Positions 22,106 to 33,935 of a stretch of 37,282 nucleotides of DNA are shown here, in pieces. Source of the DNA: a virus. Position numbers and translations under genes: made by a program. The DNA lies in the IMG/VR virus record IMGVR_UViG_3300034774_000181, positions 1 through 37,282 of that record; one strand, 5' to 3'. How positions within the stretch are numbered: the stretch's first letter is position 1; every line of letters begins with the position of its first letter. The notes beneath the pieces are model-generated. The model ran no database searches, had not been told where the DNA came from, and saw only the letters and a program-made list of their open reading frames with translations.

Positions 22106-22269
22106 CTAAATACAAAGGTGATAAACGAGATCACCGACTGCAGTCAGGCAAAGTAACATCTGATGAACGAAAGCGGATCAAGGCGATACTCAAGCAACGC
22201 AAATTATCAATGTCAGACTGGGTGATGGAAAAGGTCGCCCAAGAGGAAGCGAAGGGGAAAACACAATGA
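22102..22269 (+). CDS. Ribbon-helix-helix-like protein, 55 aa
   Basis: The sequence KVTSDERKRIKAILKQRKLS, then MSDWVMEKVAQEE, follows the ribbon-helix-helix pattern: a strand, a helix ending in a basic turn, and a second helix with SxxDWxxxKV. These small dimers bind DNA as repressors or nicking accessories. It overlaps both neighbours by ATGA and so belongs to an operon with the second PP-loop enzyme. Confidence 0.6.
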   Translation: MTKYKGDKRDHRLQSGKVTSDERKRIKAILKQRKLSMSDWVMEKVAQEEAKGKTQ

Positions 22270-23162
22270 GACACATTGTAAGTTTTAGTACAGGTATTCC
22301 TTCCGCCATAGTTGCTTATCTTATCTGCCAGCAACACCCAGACACGGTTGTTTTATTTGCAGATGTGCTATGGGAGGATGAGGATAATTACCGTTTTTAC
22401 AATGATGTGCAACGGTTACTAGATAGACCGATTCACAATGTATCGGGTGGGTTGTCCCCGTTAGAGATTGCTGATAATGAGGGTTATTCTTATATCCCGA
22501 ACCAACGGACGGCAACCTGTACACGCAAAGGTAAGATTCAAGTTATCAAAGATTTTATGCGAGATGGCGATATTCTATATCTAGGTATGACCCATGTCGA
22601 TAAAAACAACGGGCGCGACCTTGATGCGCCTATTCGTAATTGGTCTAAAATTGGGGTAACGGTTCGCTATCCATTGATTGAGCAGAATATAGAGCCTCAC
22701 GGATTTGCTAAAGAATTAGGGTTAGAACCGCCGCGCATGTATAGCATGGGATACAAACATGCGAATTGTGGTGGGCGATGTGTCAAGCAGGGGAGAGGCG
22801 ACTGGGTTAGAACGTTGGTACATTTCCCAGAGCGGTACAGTGAAGTTGAAGAATGGGAAACCTCTAAGCGGTTGAAACAGGCAACACGGATAATAGTCGA
22901 GATGGCATTATGTGCATCTATCGACAGTCTATATTTGCTAACCGTCAACTTCTCAAAGCTATATACAATTGTTCGGAAAGTGATTGACGGAATTAACGTG
23001 GGAATATCACTATCATCATTAAAAGCAGATTATCAAAACCAACACAAGCACCCTAATTTTTTTGATATGGTGGATGAATTAAACGGCTATGGTTGCACCG
23101 TCGATTGTGGAATTGGCGATATTAACGAATTAGAATTAGTATTTCAAGGGAGCAAGTCATGA
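22266..23162 (+). CDS. PP-loop ATP pyrophosphatase, PAPS reductase-like (second)
   Basis: 298 residues. The N-terminal HIVSFSTGIPSAIVAYL is a PP-loop variant in which TGIPS replaces SGGxxS. Then come FADVLWEDEDNYRF, the cysteine motif RTATCTRKGKI, VRYPLIEQN and CGGRCVKQGRGDW. The layout is that of phage PAPS reductase-like proteins, but it differs from the enzyme at 17789 and has its own C-terminal 100 residues without a recognised fold. It may act in the same modification pathway. The PP-loop has lost canonical residues, so activity needs testing. Confidence 0.72.
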   Translation: MRHIVSFSTGIPSAIVAYLICQQHPDTVVLFADVLWEDEDNYRFYNDVQRLLDRPIHNVSGGLSPLEIADNEGYSYIPNQRTATCTRKGKIQVIKDFMRDGDILYLGMTHVDKNNGRDLDAPIRNWSKIGVTVRYPLIEQNIEPHGFAKELGLEPPRMYSMGYKHANCGGRCVKQGRGDWVRTLVHFPERYSEVEEWETSKRLKQATRIIVEMALCASIDSLYLLTVNFSKLYTIVRKVIDGINVGISLSSLKADYQNQHKHPNFFDMVDELNGYGCTVDCGIGDINELELVFQGSKS

Positions 23163-23360: not shown

Positions 23361-24425
23361 ATGTTTAAAGTAGGGTCATTATTTACAGGGATTGGAGGTA
23401 TTGATTTGGCGTTCCAAAACGCAGGGTTTGAAATAGCGTGGCAATGCGAGATAGATGACTACTGCCATAAGGTTATAGCCAAGAATTTTCCAAACGTACC
23501 CAAATATCGGGACATCTACGATTGCGATAACTTTCCCTATGTTGATGTCATCACCGCCGGGTTTCCTTGCCAGCCGTTTTCAGTAGCAGGACTTCGCAAA
23601 GGTGCAGACGATGAACGTTTTTTGATTCCGAGAATGTTAGAGGTGGTCGCATATGTTAATCCAAAGATGGTTTTTCTCGAAAATGTACCGGGTTTTGCAT
23701 CACTCAATGATGGCACTGAGTTTAAACTATTACTCAGGTCGCTTGCCGAAATGGGGTACGATGCACAATGGGGACATATCCGAGCTTCGGACGTTGGCGC
23801 ACCCCATAGAAGAGAGCGTTGGTTTTGCGTGGCGCACTCCAATGGCAAACGACAGCAAAAAGGGCGCGAACTGCACAAATATTCCACGCAACGGATTACA
23901 AGCACAGATGAACTATCCAACACCGGGCGCAACCGATGGCAACCGAGGGGCTTCTATCGACCCGGACTTATTCGGCGAATCCGAAACGGGCGCACTGTAC
24001 CGAACCTCCAAAAACACCGGGACGCGCTTCGGGATGAATCTAACGCAATACGTAGCGATGGACGCGGGCAAGAATTACCCAACACCAACAACGGACGACA
24101 GCCCAATTCACGGGGGATTCAAAAGCGATTATGTACAACGTCGATTAAAAATAGGGAAACAAGTGAATTTAGCAATGACGACAACAACGGGCAAACTCAA
24201 CCCCGATTGGGTCGAGCTGCTCATGGGCTATCCTATCGGTTGGACGGACATCAATTCCCATCATCCCGAAACGTACCCCAATATGGATTTGAGCCATCAC
24301 GAGTTACCGATAGAAAGCAACACCGACGCGATAGAATAAAGGCATTAGGTAACGCGGTAGTGCCTCAAGTTATATTACCGATAGCGCAGGAAATGTATAG
24401 TTATTTAATGGAGTTGGAGGCTTGA
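23361..24425 (+). CDS. DNA (cytosine-5) methyltransferase
   Basis: 354 residues. Motif I VGSLFTGIGGIDLAF (4-18), motif IV GFPCQPFSVAG with catalytic Cys70, motif VI ENV (107-109), motif VIII GAPHRRERWF (146-155) and motif X RIKALGNAVVPQ near the end are all intact. It adds a methyl group to C5 of cytosine in a short DNA site, protecting the phage genome or altering host DNA. I see no partner restriction enzyme. The ATG at 23361 directly precedes motif I; an upstream TTG-based extension lacks support. The target recognition region (about 160-330) is low in recognisable structure and overlaps a long second frame. Confidence 0.92.
   Translation: MFKVGSLFTGIGGIDLAFQNAGFEIAWQCEIDDYCHKVIAKNFPNVPKYRDIYDCDNFPYVDVITAGFPCQPFSVAGLRKGADDERFLIPRMLEVVAYVNPKMVFLENVPGFASLNDGTEFKLLLRSLAEMGYDAQWGHIRASDVGAPHRRERWFCVAHSNGKRQQKGRELHKYSTQRITSTDELSNTGRNRWQPRGFYRPGLIRRIRNGRTVPNLQKHRDALRDESNAIRSDGRGQELPNTNNGRQPNSRGIQKRLCTTSIKNRETSEFSNDDNNGQTQPRLGRAAHGLSYRLDGHQFPSSRNVPQYGFEPSRVTDRKQHRRDRIKALGNAVVPQVILPIAQEMYSYLMELEA
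23653..24339 (+). other. Second open frame inside the C5 methyltransferase gene
   Basis: The +1 frame relative to the methyltransferase is open for 228 codons from an internal ATG. From about 23800 it encodes AWRTPMANDSKKGAN, two YPTP motifs and LNPDWVELLMGYPIGWTD, all typical of the C-terminal part of another group of C5 methyltransferases. It lacks motifs I-IV and motif X. The main frame in the same bases also looks genuine. There is no good ribosome site at 23653. Confidence 0.55.
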
Positions 24426-24762: not shown

Positions 24763-27234
24763 ATGGTTATAGAATACAATGAGTTTTTAACAAGTAAACA
24801 TAATACCCCTGTTTATCAGGGATTCGACGTGCCAGAGTCCGACATTCATCCGATGTTGTATAAATTCCAAAATGCAATTGTTAGATGGTCACTGAGTTTA
24901 GGTAAGTCGGGAGTTTTTGCCGAATGTGGACTGGGCAAAACTTTAATTCAGTTAGAGTGGGCACGTCATGTTATTGAATACACTGAAGGTCGAGTATTGA
25001 TCCTTGCACCACTGGCAGTCACTGCTCAAACAATTCAAGAGGGGGATCGAATCGGAGTCAAGGTTGTTTATTGTGAAGATGACAGCCAAGTAGAACAGCA
25101 TCCAATAGATACGATTATCATCACTAATTATGACCGCCTTCATAAGTTTGATACGACGCAATTCCGCGGAGTTGTTCTCGATGAATCGTCAATCCTCAAG
25201 AATTTCACAGGCAAAACCAAACAGCTATTGATTGAATCATTTCTACATACTGAATTCAAACTAGCATGCACCGCAACCCCAGCACCAAACGATTACATGG
25301 AATTAGGAAACCACGCGGACTTTCTATCTGTTATGCCATCGAATGAAATGTTGATGCGATGGTTTCAAGCAGATTCAATGAATGCAGGAAACTATATTCT
25401 CAAGCCCCACGGCAAACTTGACTTCTATAAATGGTTAACCTCGTGGGCGGTTTGCATATCTCATCCAAGAGATTTAGGCGATGAATATGATATGCCAGAT
25501 TTTGACTTACCACATTTGAATATATTGGAACATATCGTCAGTTATAGTCAGGCTTCAATCGATAAGGCGTGGGCAAAGGGGAGGCTAATCCCTGATACTA
25601 ATGTGTCAAGTATCTCGATTCATACCGTTAAACGTGATTCATTAAAGAGCCGTATAGAAATGTCTAATAGCATTGTAAAAGGCATTGACGATAAACCTAT
25701 TATCTTTTGGTGTGATACCAACGATGAAGCTAATGCGTTGATGGTAGAGAACCCTGACGCTGTAGAAGTTCGTGGTAGCCATTCACGCCAAGTTAAAGTT
25801 GAACGGTTAAACTCATTCAGTAATGGGGATGTGACTCAGATTATCACAAAACCATCAATCGCAGGGTTCGGATTAAACTGGCAGCATTGCACAAATCAAG
25901 TTCTAATCGGGTTGTCGTTTAGCTTTGAGAAACTATATCAGGCTATTCGTCGGAGCTATCGTTTCGGTGTGAAGGACGCGGTTAATATTCATATGATCGT
26001 ATCAGAGACGGAAGGTAACGTATTACAAGCTATCAAAACTAAGCAAGCCTTATTTAAAGAAATGCAGGAAGGTATGAATAACGCTATGACTGAACATGGG
26101 CTATTTAGGCAAGAGGGTAAGACCACGCTATCAACACCCGATTATGATTTTGCAAGTGGTAAAAATTGGGAACTTCATTTAGGCGATTGTGTTGAGCAGA
26201 TCGCAAAGGTAAAAGATAATTCGATAGACTTTGGGATTCACTCACCACCGTTTAGCAACCTATATATTTATAGTAATTCAGAAGCGGATATGGGGAATTC
26301 GTCTAATGACGATGAATTTTTTAACCATTACAAATATTTGATTCGTGAAATGTACCGCATAACCCGTCCCGGTCGATTGTGTGCTGTTCACTGTAAAGAT
26401 TTGCCATTATACAAAGGGCGTGATGGCGCGGCTGGACTATCTGATTTTGCAGGTGAGATAATTCGTGCGTTTGAAGAAATGGATAAACCCGATTTCAACC
26501 AATATGACGACATGGCAGAATACAAACGTGATATTGCTACATGGTCGGAATCGCGTAAAACATCACGCCAATGGGTGTTCCATAGTCGTGTGACTATCTG
26601 GAAAGACCCTGCAACCGAGATGCGACGTACTAAAAACAGTGGTTTATTACATAAGAACTTCAAAGTTCACGCTGAACAATGTCGTCAGGGAATGGCAGAT
26701 TATCTCATCGTCTTCCGTAAATGGGGGGATATTGATGATGGAGTAGGTGTTATCCAAAAACGTGAAATAGGGCAATATGTAGGGGATGAACCTCCGACAG
26801 AAGCTGACTATCTATATAAATATAACAAGGCGCGTGGTGGTGGAACTTTGAATACTCAATCAGGTCAAGTCCGTGCTAATTCTATCCGCACATGGCAGAA
26901 GTACGCTAGTCCAGTATGGTTTGATATTGACCAAACGAATGTTTTAAATCACAAAATAGCACGTGATGTGAATGACGAAAAACATATATGCCCGTTGCAA
27001 TTAGATGTGATAGAACGTGCAATTGACCTCTGGACGAATAAGGGGGAGGTCGTGTTTAGCCCGTTTGCAGGGGTAGGTAGCGAATTGGTATCGGCTATTA
27101 AAATGGGGCGCAAAGCAATAGGAATCGAGCTTAAAGAGTCGTACTATAAGACAGCGATTACGCATCTTAAAGAAGCGGAATTGTCCGGCACCCAACTAGA
27201 TATGTTTGATAACCTTATCAAAGTAGAAAGTTAG
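24763..27234 (+). CDS. SNF2-type helicase fused to DNA adenine/N4-cytosine methyltransferase
   Basis: 823 residues with two parts. Residues 1-460 are a superfamily 2 ATPase: Walker A AECGLGKT (53-60), LAPLAVTAQT, DESS (140-143), ACTATPAPND and a C-terminal RecA lobe (KPSIAGFGLNWQHC, AIRRSYRFGV). Residues 470-823 are a beta-type amino-methyltransferase: GDCVEQIAK, SPPF (494-497) before the SAM-binding FSPFAGVGSEL (765-775) and GRKAIGIELKESYY. Fusions of translocase and methylase are known from P1 DarB and other phage anti-restriction proteins. The joint enzyme may modify DNA while tracking along it. Confidence 0.88.
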   Translation: MVIEYNEFLTSKHNTPVYQGFDVPESDIHPMLYKFQNAIVRWSLSLGKSGVFAECGLGKTLIQLEWARHVIEYTEGRVLILAPLAVTAQTIQEGDRIGVKVVYCEDDSQVEQHPIDTIIITNYDRLHKFDTTQFRGVVLDESSILKNFTGKTKQLLIESFLHTEFKLACTATPAPNDYMELGNHADFLSVMPSNEMLMRWFQADSMNAGNYILKPHGKLDFYKWLTSWAVCISHPRDLGDEYDMPDFDLPHLNILEHIVSYSQASIDKAWAKGRLIPDTNVSSISIHTVKRDSLKSRIEMSNSIVKGIDDKPIIFWCDTNDEANALMVENPDAVEVRGSHSRQVKVERLNSFSNGDVTQIITKPSIAGFGLNWQHCTNQVLIGLSFSFEKLYQAIRRSYRFGVKDAVNIHMIVSETEGNVLQAIKTKQALFKEMQEGMNNAMTEHGLFRQEGKTTLSTPDYDFASGKNWELHLGDCVEQIAKVKDNSIDFGIHSPPFSNLYIYSNSEADMGNSSNDDEFFNHYKYLIREMYRITRPGRLCAVHCKDLPLYKGRDGAAGLSDFAGEIIRAFEEMDKPDFNQYDDMAEYKRDIATWSESRKTSRQWVFHSRVTIWKDPATEMRRTKNSGLLHKNFKVHAEQCRQGMADYLIVFRKWGDIDDGVGVIQKREIGQYVGDEPPTEADYLYKYNKARGGGTLNTQSGQVRANSIRTWQKYASPVWFDIDQTNVLNHKIARDVNDEKHICPLQLDVIERAIDLWTNKGEVVFSPFAGVGSELVSAIKMGRKAIGIELKESYYKTAITHLKEAELSGTQLDMFDNLIKVES

Positions 27235-32229: not shown

Positions 32230-32472
32230 ATGAGTCACATTAAGACGATACGTAATGCGATAGATACCTATTTCGGAGATTACAAAGCCCTTGAGGTTGC
32301 TGTTATGGTTGACCCTGATGATATGGACTCTAAACACACATCGATTACGATTGTTACTGACTTGTCTGATGAAGAGTCCTATAAACGGCTGAAACACTTT
32401 GATTCGACGTGGTGGCTTGCCCAACCGATTGACTTGAGGCGACAGTTTGTTGTTTCGGTGGTGGGGCGATGA
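32230..32472 (+). CDS. Small unknown protein, 80 aa
   Basis: Directly follows the previous stop and overlaps the ParB-methyltransferase by ATGATG. An alpha/beta protein with a central strand pair (LEVAVMVDPDDMD, then TSITIVTDL) like small ferredoxin-like folds. It may be a partner of the following enzyme. Confidence 0.55.
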   Translation: MSHIKTIRNAIDTYFGDYKALEVAVMVDPDDMDSKHTSITIVTDLSDEESYKRLKHFDSTWWLAQPIDLRRQFVVSVVGR

Positions 32473-33935
32473 TGACCGTTAAGCTATCCGATATTAACCT
32501 GTGGGACGCGAATTATCGCCAAGGTGATGTGGCAATGATTACCGCAAGTATTCAGAAGTTCGGCTATGCGCGCAGTGTGGCCCTGTGGACAGATAACACG
32601 GTCATTGCTGGAAACCATACGATTAAGGCATTACAAGCCCTAGAGGCACAACAAGCAGATGTTCCTAACAATGTGGATGTTATTGATGGTGATTGGCATA
32701 TTGATGTTACTGATGTGAGCCACCTCGATGACCGTGAAGCACAGGCATATGGGATAGCGGATAATAGAACTGCCGATAGTGCAACCAATGACGATGAACA
32801 ACTCGCCAGCCTATTGACGCAATTACAGGATGAGCCTGATTTGTTGAAGGCGACGGGGTATGATGATGATGATATTGCGGAGTTATTAAGTGGGTTAATG
32901 TCTGATGATGAATCACACGACGGGGAAGATACAGTCCCCATTAAGTTAACCGAGCGTTTCGTTGTGCCTCCGTTTAGCGTATTGGATGCACGTCAGGGCT
33001 ATTGGCAAGACCGAAAGCGTCAATGGTTAGCGGTAGGGATAAAGAGCGAATTGGGACGGGGGAAAGACCTTGTTTCTTCTAGAAGGCCAGAGTTCCATGA
33101 TTACAGAAATGGGGCAACATCTAACGCATTAGCCAGCACGTTTAAAAACTCAACCCAACAGAATCAAGGCGAAGATGCTATCTTGACACAGGATAACGGA
33201 ACAAGCATCTTTGATCCTGTTATTTGCGAACTCGCTTATCTATGGTTTAGCCCTGTCGGTGCATCAGTTATCGACCCGTTTGCAGGTGGCAGTGTTCGCG
33301 GAATTGTAGCGTCAAAGTTAGGACGTGATTATACAGGTATTGACTTAAGCGAACCGCAGATTATAGCCAACCGAGAACAAGCAACATTGTTAACGCCTGA
33401 TAGTCAACCGAATTGGATAGTAGGCGATAGTTCAGGCATTGATTCATTAGTTGATGATACCTATGATTTATTTTTTACGTGTCCACCCTATGCAGATTTA
33501 GAGGTGTACAGCGATCACCCATCTGACATTAGTAATATGGCATATGCGGACTTTCTACCCATCTACCGCGACATTATCAATAAATCGTGTCAGTTATTAA
33601 ATGATGATCGTTTTGCTGTTATCGTCGTGGGCGAGGTTCGAGATAAAAAAGGACATTATTATAATTTCGTCGGGGATACTGTGACGGCGTTTTTAGATGC
33701 TGGTCTAGTATTGTATAACGAGGCGATTCTTGTTACAGCATTAGGAACTGTTATGATGCAAGCAAGCCGTAATTTCCCGATAGGTCGAAAGCTAGGCAAG
33801 ACACACCAAAACGTTTTGGTATTTCTTAAAGGCGATTCTAAACGAGCGGTTGAGTTTTGCGGTGATGTTGAAATTGTAATGCCAGCCGATGAGGGTGAAG
33901 AAAGTGAATACGGGGTGAAACTTGACCTTTCCTAA
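32469..33935 (+). CDS. ParB-like domain fused to DNA methyltransferase
   Basis: 488 residues. Residues 1-110 are a ParB/sulfiredoxin-like domain: VKLSDINLWDANYRQGD, then IAGNHTIKAL and DDREAQAYGIADNRTAD. After a linker the methyltransferase domain has motif I VIDPFAGGSVRGIVA (about 267), GRDYTGIDLSE, and motif IV CPPY (338-341), where Cys replaces the usual Asp, Asn or Ser. ParB-methylase fusions are common in phages and modify adenine or cytosine. The CPPY change could alter the chemistry. The end overlaps the PLP enzyme gene, so the two are co-translated. Confidence 0.83.
   Translation: MMTVKLSDINLWDANYRQGDVAMITASIQKFGYARSVALWTDNTVIAGNHTIKALQALEAQQADVPNNVDVIDGDWHIDVTDVSHLDDREAQAYGIADNRTADSATNDDEQLASLLTQLQDEPDLLKATGYDDDDIAELLSGLMSDDESHDGEDTVPIKLTERFVVPPFSVLDARQGYWQDRKRQWLAVGIKSELGRGKDLVSSRRPEFHDYRNGATSNALASTFKNSTQQNQGEDAILTQDNGTSIFDPVICELAYLWFSPVGASVIDPFAGGSVRGIVASKLGRDYTGIDLSEPQIIANREQATLLTPDSQPNWIVGDSSGIDSLVDDTYDLFFTCPPYADLEVYSDHPSDISNMAYADFLPIYRDIINKSCQLLNDDRFAVIVVGEVRDKKGHYYNFVGDTVTAFLDAGLVLYNEAILVTALGTVMMQASRNFPIGRKLGKTHQNVLVFLKGDSKRAVEFCGDVEIVMPADEGEESEYGVKLDLS

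Follow-up and report, generated by a model that had tools for sequence, protein, structure and literature searches.

An overprinted phage C5 cytosine methyltransferase gene with a putative target-recognition protein encoded in its +1 frame

The window, i.e., the whole stretch of 37,282 nucleotides of viral DNA analysed here, contains a gene for the catalytic subunit of a C5 cytosine methyltransferase (positions 23361-24425, plus strand; 354 amino acids; referred to below as alpha). Translation probably begins at ATG 23361; a longer reading from TTG 23313 is open as well. The main-frame protein matches PF00145 (2.7e-51) and phrog_363 (4.8e-75) and carries motifs I, IV (PCQ), VI (ENV), VIII and X in this order. 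The catalytic Cys70 lies in motif IV (23565-23573, plus strand), which is invariant in our alignment A2; motif VI (23679-23687, plus strand) was located in the same alignment. At the 3' end, the motif X region (RVTDRK..RIKALGNAVVPQ; 24318-24368, plus strand) is again read in the main frame, with its GN at 24348-24353. A gene for a PAPS-reductase-like protein (phrog_424) is located upstream (window 22266-23162), and a gene in which an SNF2-type helicase is joined to an N6/N4 DNA methylase follows directly 3' (window 24763-27234). Furthermore, a DNA methyltransferase with a fused ParB-like domain is encoded at window 32469-33935, and the phage possesses in total at least three methyltransferase genes.

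Inside alpha, a second open reading frame (beta) lies in the +1 frame of the same strand. It extends from ATG to TAA (23653-24339, plus strand; 228 codons, 228 amino acids), and the first-pass annotation had given its coordinates, its openness and the quoted family phrases correctly. A Shine-Dalgarno sequence GAGGTG (23640-23645, plus strand) is present within alpha 7 nt before this ATG, and the motif VI DNA, read in the +1 frame, offers an alternative ATG at 23683. The beta translation matches phrog_1008 'DNA methyltransferase' (2.8e-18), i.e., PHROGs already includes this protein, and has no match of its own in Pfam and NCBIfam. Both translations match methyltransferases over the same interval, in agreement with the first-pass claim that these bases are coding-like in two frames. 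Beta comprises the recognition region with its WRTP.., YPTP.. and YPTP.. repeats (23830-24195, plus strand; alignment A1) and motif IX (LNPDWVELLMGYPIGWTD; 24196-24249, plus strand), the columns of which are invariant in A1. The statement in the same annotation that the main frame has all C5 methyltransferase motifs has to be corrected: alpha contains motifs I-VIII and X, and motif IX is found solely in the +1 frame, the LNPDWVELLMGYPIGWTD DNA reading LGRAAHGLSYRLDG in the main frame. In a single-chain C5 methyltransferase, the recognition region and motif IX share the frame of the other motifs; here, both are in +1.

In the AF2 model of alpha, residues 1-166 have pLDDT mostly >90 and the motif X end has 76-95; residues 171-315 are at pLDDT <50 throughout, with almost no secondary structure. 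Foldseek matches the model to M.HhaI with an E-value of 6e-18 over 163 columns only. The main-frame segment of residues 171-315 (23871-24305, plus strand), which covers the recognition region, is thus predicted to be a disordered linker between motifs VIII and X. As this segment looks like an unstructured linker in the model, the earlier picture of two family-like C termini of equal standing does not hold. Beta, modelled alone, has a mean pLDDT of 59; it is best at motif IX (~84) and poorly structured in its N-terminal part. A Foldseek search of this low-confidence model (pLDDT 59) against PDB gave no match, nothing was found in PDB with the beta profile, and a motif IX-X profile had only weak matches among solved proteins, to a plant DRM-like methyltransferase (E 0.1).

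The coexistence of two coding frames was compared with chance. When the synonymous codons of the window were shuffled under a fixed main protein, the +1 frame was open in 0 of 5000 shuffles, with a mean of 5.6 stops in the shuffled sequences and 0 in the real one. The +1 protein of the window scored 123 bits with a beta model made from 182 relatives with the window left out, and 1000 shuffles reached a mean of 22.7 and a maximum of 62. The real +1 sequence scored above all 50 shuffles in 105 of 105 nested loci; these include loci that were not used for model building, of which 48 of 48 passed. In the converse test, beta was fixed and its codons were shuffled; the main frame would then be expected to contain 5.5 stops, whereas 0 were seen. 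Alpha stays open through beta in 76/78, 62/68 and 50/53 loci of three sets; for the 11 loci in which it does not, motif X is in the beta frame in nine. The two-frame observation is therefore confirmed as real and far from chance. A +1 frame can open by chance under some main-frame sequences (mean P(open) 0.155 per locus). Nevertheless, it is hardly conceivable that the +1 resemblance simply reflects conservation of the main frame or base composition, as the shuffle and codon-position tests exclude this reading. The same tests led us to reject chance, base composition and a +1 frame that is only a vestige.

Substitution rates at main-frame codon positions 1/2/3 were determined for 40 independent pairs of relatives. 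They come from relatives and not from the window because the window has no close relative (its best relatives have only ~38-44% identity). Before the overlap, the rates are.133/.076/.275; over the recognition region and motif IX, they are.365/.124/.134; in motif X, they are.159/.032/.255. The fast position, main-frame position 3 before the overlap, is thus position 1 in the recognition region and returns to position 3 at motif X, with sharp borders, which implies that selection over the recognition region acts on the +1 frame and that the main frame is mainly kept open. The first-pass annotation had suggested a test for synonymous-site constraint in relatives; over their recognition region, the wobble position belongs to the +1 frame. 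Judged from these substitutions, the main-frame residues there look weakly constrained, though stop-free. At the start of the beta core (first 40 codons) and in the N-terminal extension of the coextensive loci, substitutions follow the main frame, so that constraint on this part of beta is weak; the beta of the window holds just a short piece of it.

These rates also bear on the reading that the main-frame protein is a complete methyltransferase with a new, frameshift-born recognition domain and that the +1 frame is an untranslated relic. In its favour, the main ORF is intact and gene callers annotate only that ORF, e.g., in E. coli (the RefSeq annotation of E. coli PT62 contains alpha only, with the +1 ORF present in the DNA). 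However, selection over the recognition region tracks +1 rather than the main frame, conservation of the +1 protein goes far beyond that imposed by the main frame, the main-frame segment has no fold in the AF2 model, and such an enzyme would be without motif IX. We consider this reading very improbable.

Among the phage and bacterial methyltransferases of this group, the nested +1 layout is near-universal. With the main-frame protein as query, 57 viral loci were found, nearly all of which have beta in +1. A second viral sample was collected with a profile of main-frame proteins and is unbiased for beta; among the matches listed, 79 loci have a complete A domain, and 78 of them have beta in +1. 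In species-representative genomes of bacteria and archaea, the beta profile found 80 loci, of which 62 are fully nested and six more have beta together with motif X in one frame (beta-plus-X form); as this set was collected with the beta profile, it shows the arrangement of beta and not how often methyltransferases carry it. These loci span Bacillota, Pseudomonadota, Spirochaetota, Planctomycetota and others. Only two beta matches were found in plasmids. The first-pass annotation would have given up its proposal if the +1 translation had no methyltransferase match or if relatives freely interrupted it with stops; neither is the case, and the relatives keep the frame.

Some individual loci deviate from this layout or extend it. 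In L119 and L124, both alpha and beta are displaced by a one-base shift, either a real mutation or an error of sequencing, and the +1 relation is kept. The relative at L355:2453-3286 has a short main frame; beta was not detected there, and the recognition region is apparently lost. At L462:800-1561 (E. coli PCP07014), annotated in RefSeq as a pseudogene, alpha has an internal stop and the downstream beta core is still open. In L003:2695-4347, the beta ORF runs stop-free into an amino-methyltransferase (SPPYW, DPFCGSGTT), possibly a natural fusion. Finally, one prophage locus contains a second, divergent nested pair (L122:351-1365) whose methyltransferase frame looks different and whose +1 frame ends GQLNPTHSRWLMALPPEWDD; dual coding may thus occur beyond the studied clade.

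Two further forms of the gene can be found among the relatives. In L155, L304, L072, L385 and L207, motifs I-VIII, a WPTP-type recognition region, IX and X are encoded in one ORF. As the recognition region, IX and X are in one frame in these single-chain relatives, the nested gene corresponds to the single-chain gene in which the frame changes once behind motif VIII and is restored by an opposite, compensating change behind IX; this sequence comparison describes the relation of the layouts and not the direction of change. In another set (e.g., L004, L051, L141 and L148), alpha ends soon after motif VIII, and the +1 ORF contains motifs IX and X as well as the recognition region. A tree was made from 233 catalytic domains; its branch support is modest, and some form labels (L205, L332 and L391) are based on partial cases. 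In this tree, the nested form is dominant, and the single-chain form (9 rows, 8 changes, 6 forced) and the beta-plus-X form (21 rows, 20 changes) are scattered. This scatter suggests that the nested, single-chain and beta-plus-X forms repeatedly interconvert.

How beta would be made can be judged from its starts. A Shine-Dalgarno match of at least 6 nt precedes a beta-frame start in 89 of the 207 loci in which beta opens inside alpha, compared with 11/207 and 2/207 in two control frames; these counts are rough, as near-copies are present and the candidate starts are unequal in number. In the coextensive class, the ATGs of alpha and beta are 4 nt apart and share one GGAGG upstream. The own start codons and ribosome sites of beta point to separate initiation and argue against frameshifting. 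According to the latter reading, the ribosome would undergo a programmed +1 shift after motif VIII and return after IX, giving one chain VIII-recognition region-IX-X, and the order of frames is indeed the same as in the single-chain relatives. Yet it demands two opposite programmed shifts, the starts and ribosome sites of the beta ORF lie far upstream of the shift point, and the main frame would not need to stay open over the recognition region, although it does. Furthermore, beta in some relatives spans in one frame from beside the alpha start to motif X. Programmed frameshifting is thus very unlikely. The first-pass annotation had posed a pair of frameshifts and two products as alternatives; the data favour the two in combination, the former being indicated by the single-chain relatives and the latter by two-frame selection and the own ribosome site of beta.

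Taken as a whole, the locus very likely consists of two nested genes, alpha for catalysis and beta for target recognition with motif IX, whose products form a two-subunit enzyme similar to M.EcoHK31I. Alpha would provide AdoMet binding and the catalytic Cys with motifs I-VIII, followed by the long unstructured linker and motif X. Beta would be translated independently from its own internal site (GAGGTG, ATG 23653) and would supply the target-recognition region and motif IX, i.e., the small domain that single-chain relatives keep within one ORF. Alpha and beta would then assemble to an active enzyme with beta determining the site at which the DNA of the phage (or the prophage-bearing DNA) is methylated, presumably for shielding the phage's own DNA from restriction or for regulation. 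For this phage, we infer translation of beta, alpha-beta assembly, activity, and recognition by beta alone; assembly and activity are proposed by analogy to M.EcoHK31I. Beta most likely carries the DNA-recognition part. The absence of a Pfam or NCBIfam match and the poorly structured N-terminal part of beta would fit a translated overlapping protein with another job outside the methyltransferase (e.g., anti-restriction, regulation). However, the same sequence fills the recognition-IX position in the five single-chain relatives, and beta takes over motif X where alpha stops early, so that there is just a slim chance of such a separate function.

M.EcoHK31I and M.EaeI are C5 methyltransferases consisting of two polypeptides and recognizing YGGCCR. 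Lee et al. (1995) reportedly found that the small-subunit gene of M.EcoHK31I is nested out of frame within the large-subunit gene and that activity needs both proteins; if so, the window has the same nesting of the small-subunit gene. The large subunit of M.EcoHK31I contains motifs I-VIII and X and the small subunit motif IX (PMC3404938). Compared by motif layout, the window is alike, with I-VIII and X but not IX in alpha and IX on the second polypeptide. In contrast to the assignment of the M.EcoHK31I target-recognition domain to the large subunit (PMC3404938), the substitution pattern, AF2 and the single-chain relatives place it in beta. The small subunit of M.AquI contains a part of the variable region, IX and X (PMC3404938). 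The split near the recognition region and the presence of IX on the partner are shared with M.AquI, whereas the window keeps X in the alpha main frame rather than together with IX on the second subunit. L004, L051, L141 and L148 resemble M.AquI in having X on the second protein, but here it is overlapped in +1. With the single-chain M.HhaI and M.HaeIII, alpha shares motifs I-VIII, X and the large-domain fold; unlike in these enzymes, the recognition region and IX are in another frame and on another protein. Some Paenibacillus larvae phages encode the same nested +1 CDS, annotated by the depositors as SHELLY_56 ('g55 internal gene') and BLOOM_57; the proteins of this pair are ~30% identical to those of the window, and the depositors state no function for it.

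The kind of arrangement is therefore already known from M.EcoHK31I (PMC3404938), and the first-pass proposal of a new way to change DNA specificity is not supported by these data. In the open-licence papers searched, no literature on the breadth of the arrangement or on the assignment of recognition was found beyond M.EcoHK31I summaries. What is new is this breadth, the evidence for recognition in beta, and the scattered one-chain and beta-plus-X variants. We think it probable that the C5 methyltransferases of a very large clade, from phages and bacteria, are encoded by a conserved two-protein gene overprinted on the same strand, with the recognition protein out of frame inside the catalytic one, that the annotated main-frame 'recognition domain' is unstructured read-through, and that small frame changes move the clade between nested, beta-plus-X and single-chain forms. 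For many such genes, annotation pipelines name the main-frame protein only. If recognition resides in the unannotated +1 protein, then the wrong sequence is being used in this clade for predicting specificity, for cloning and for assigning methylomes, and the named protein expressed alone should be inactive. Dual coding is seen in this family with unusual clarity for a natural example, as the selected codon position visibly changes frame and then returns. The family also allows a direct test of the old question of which M.EcoHK31I subunit reads the DNA.
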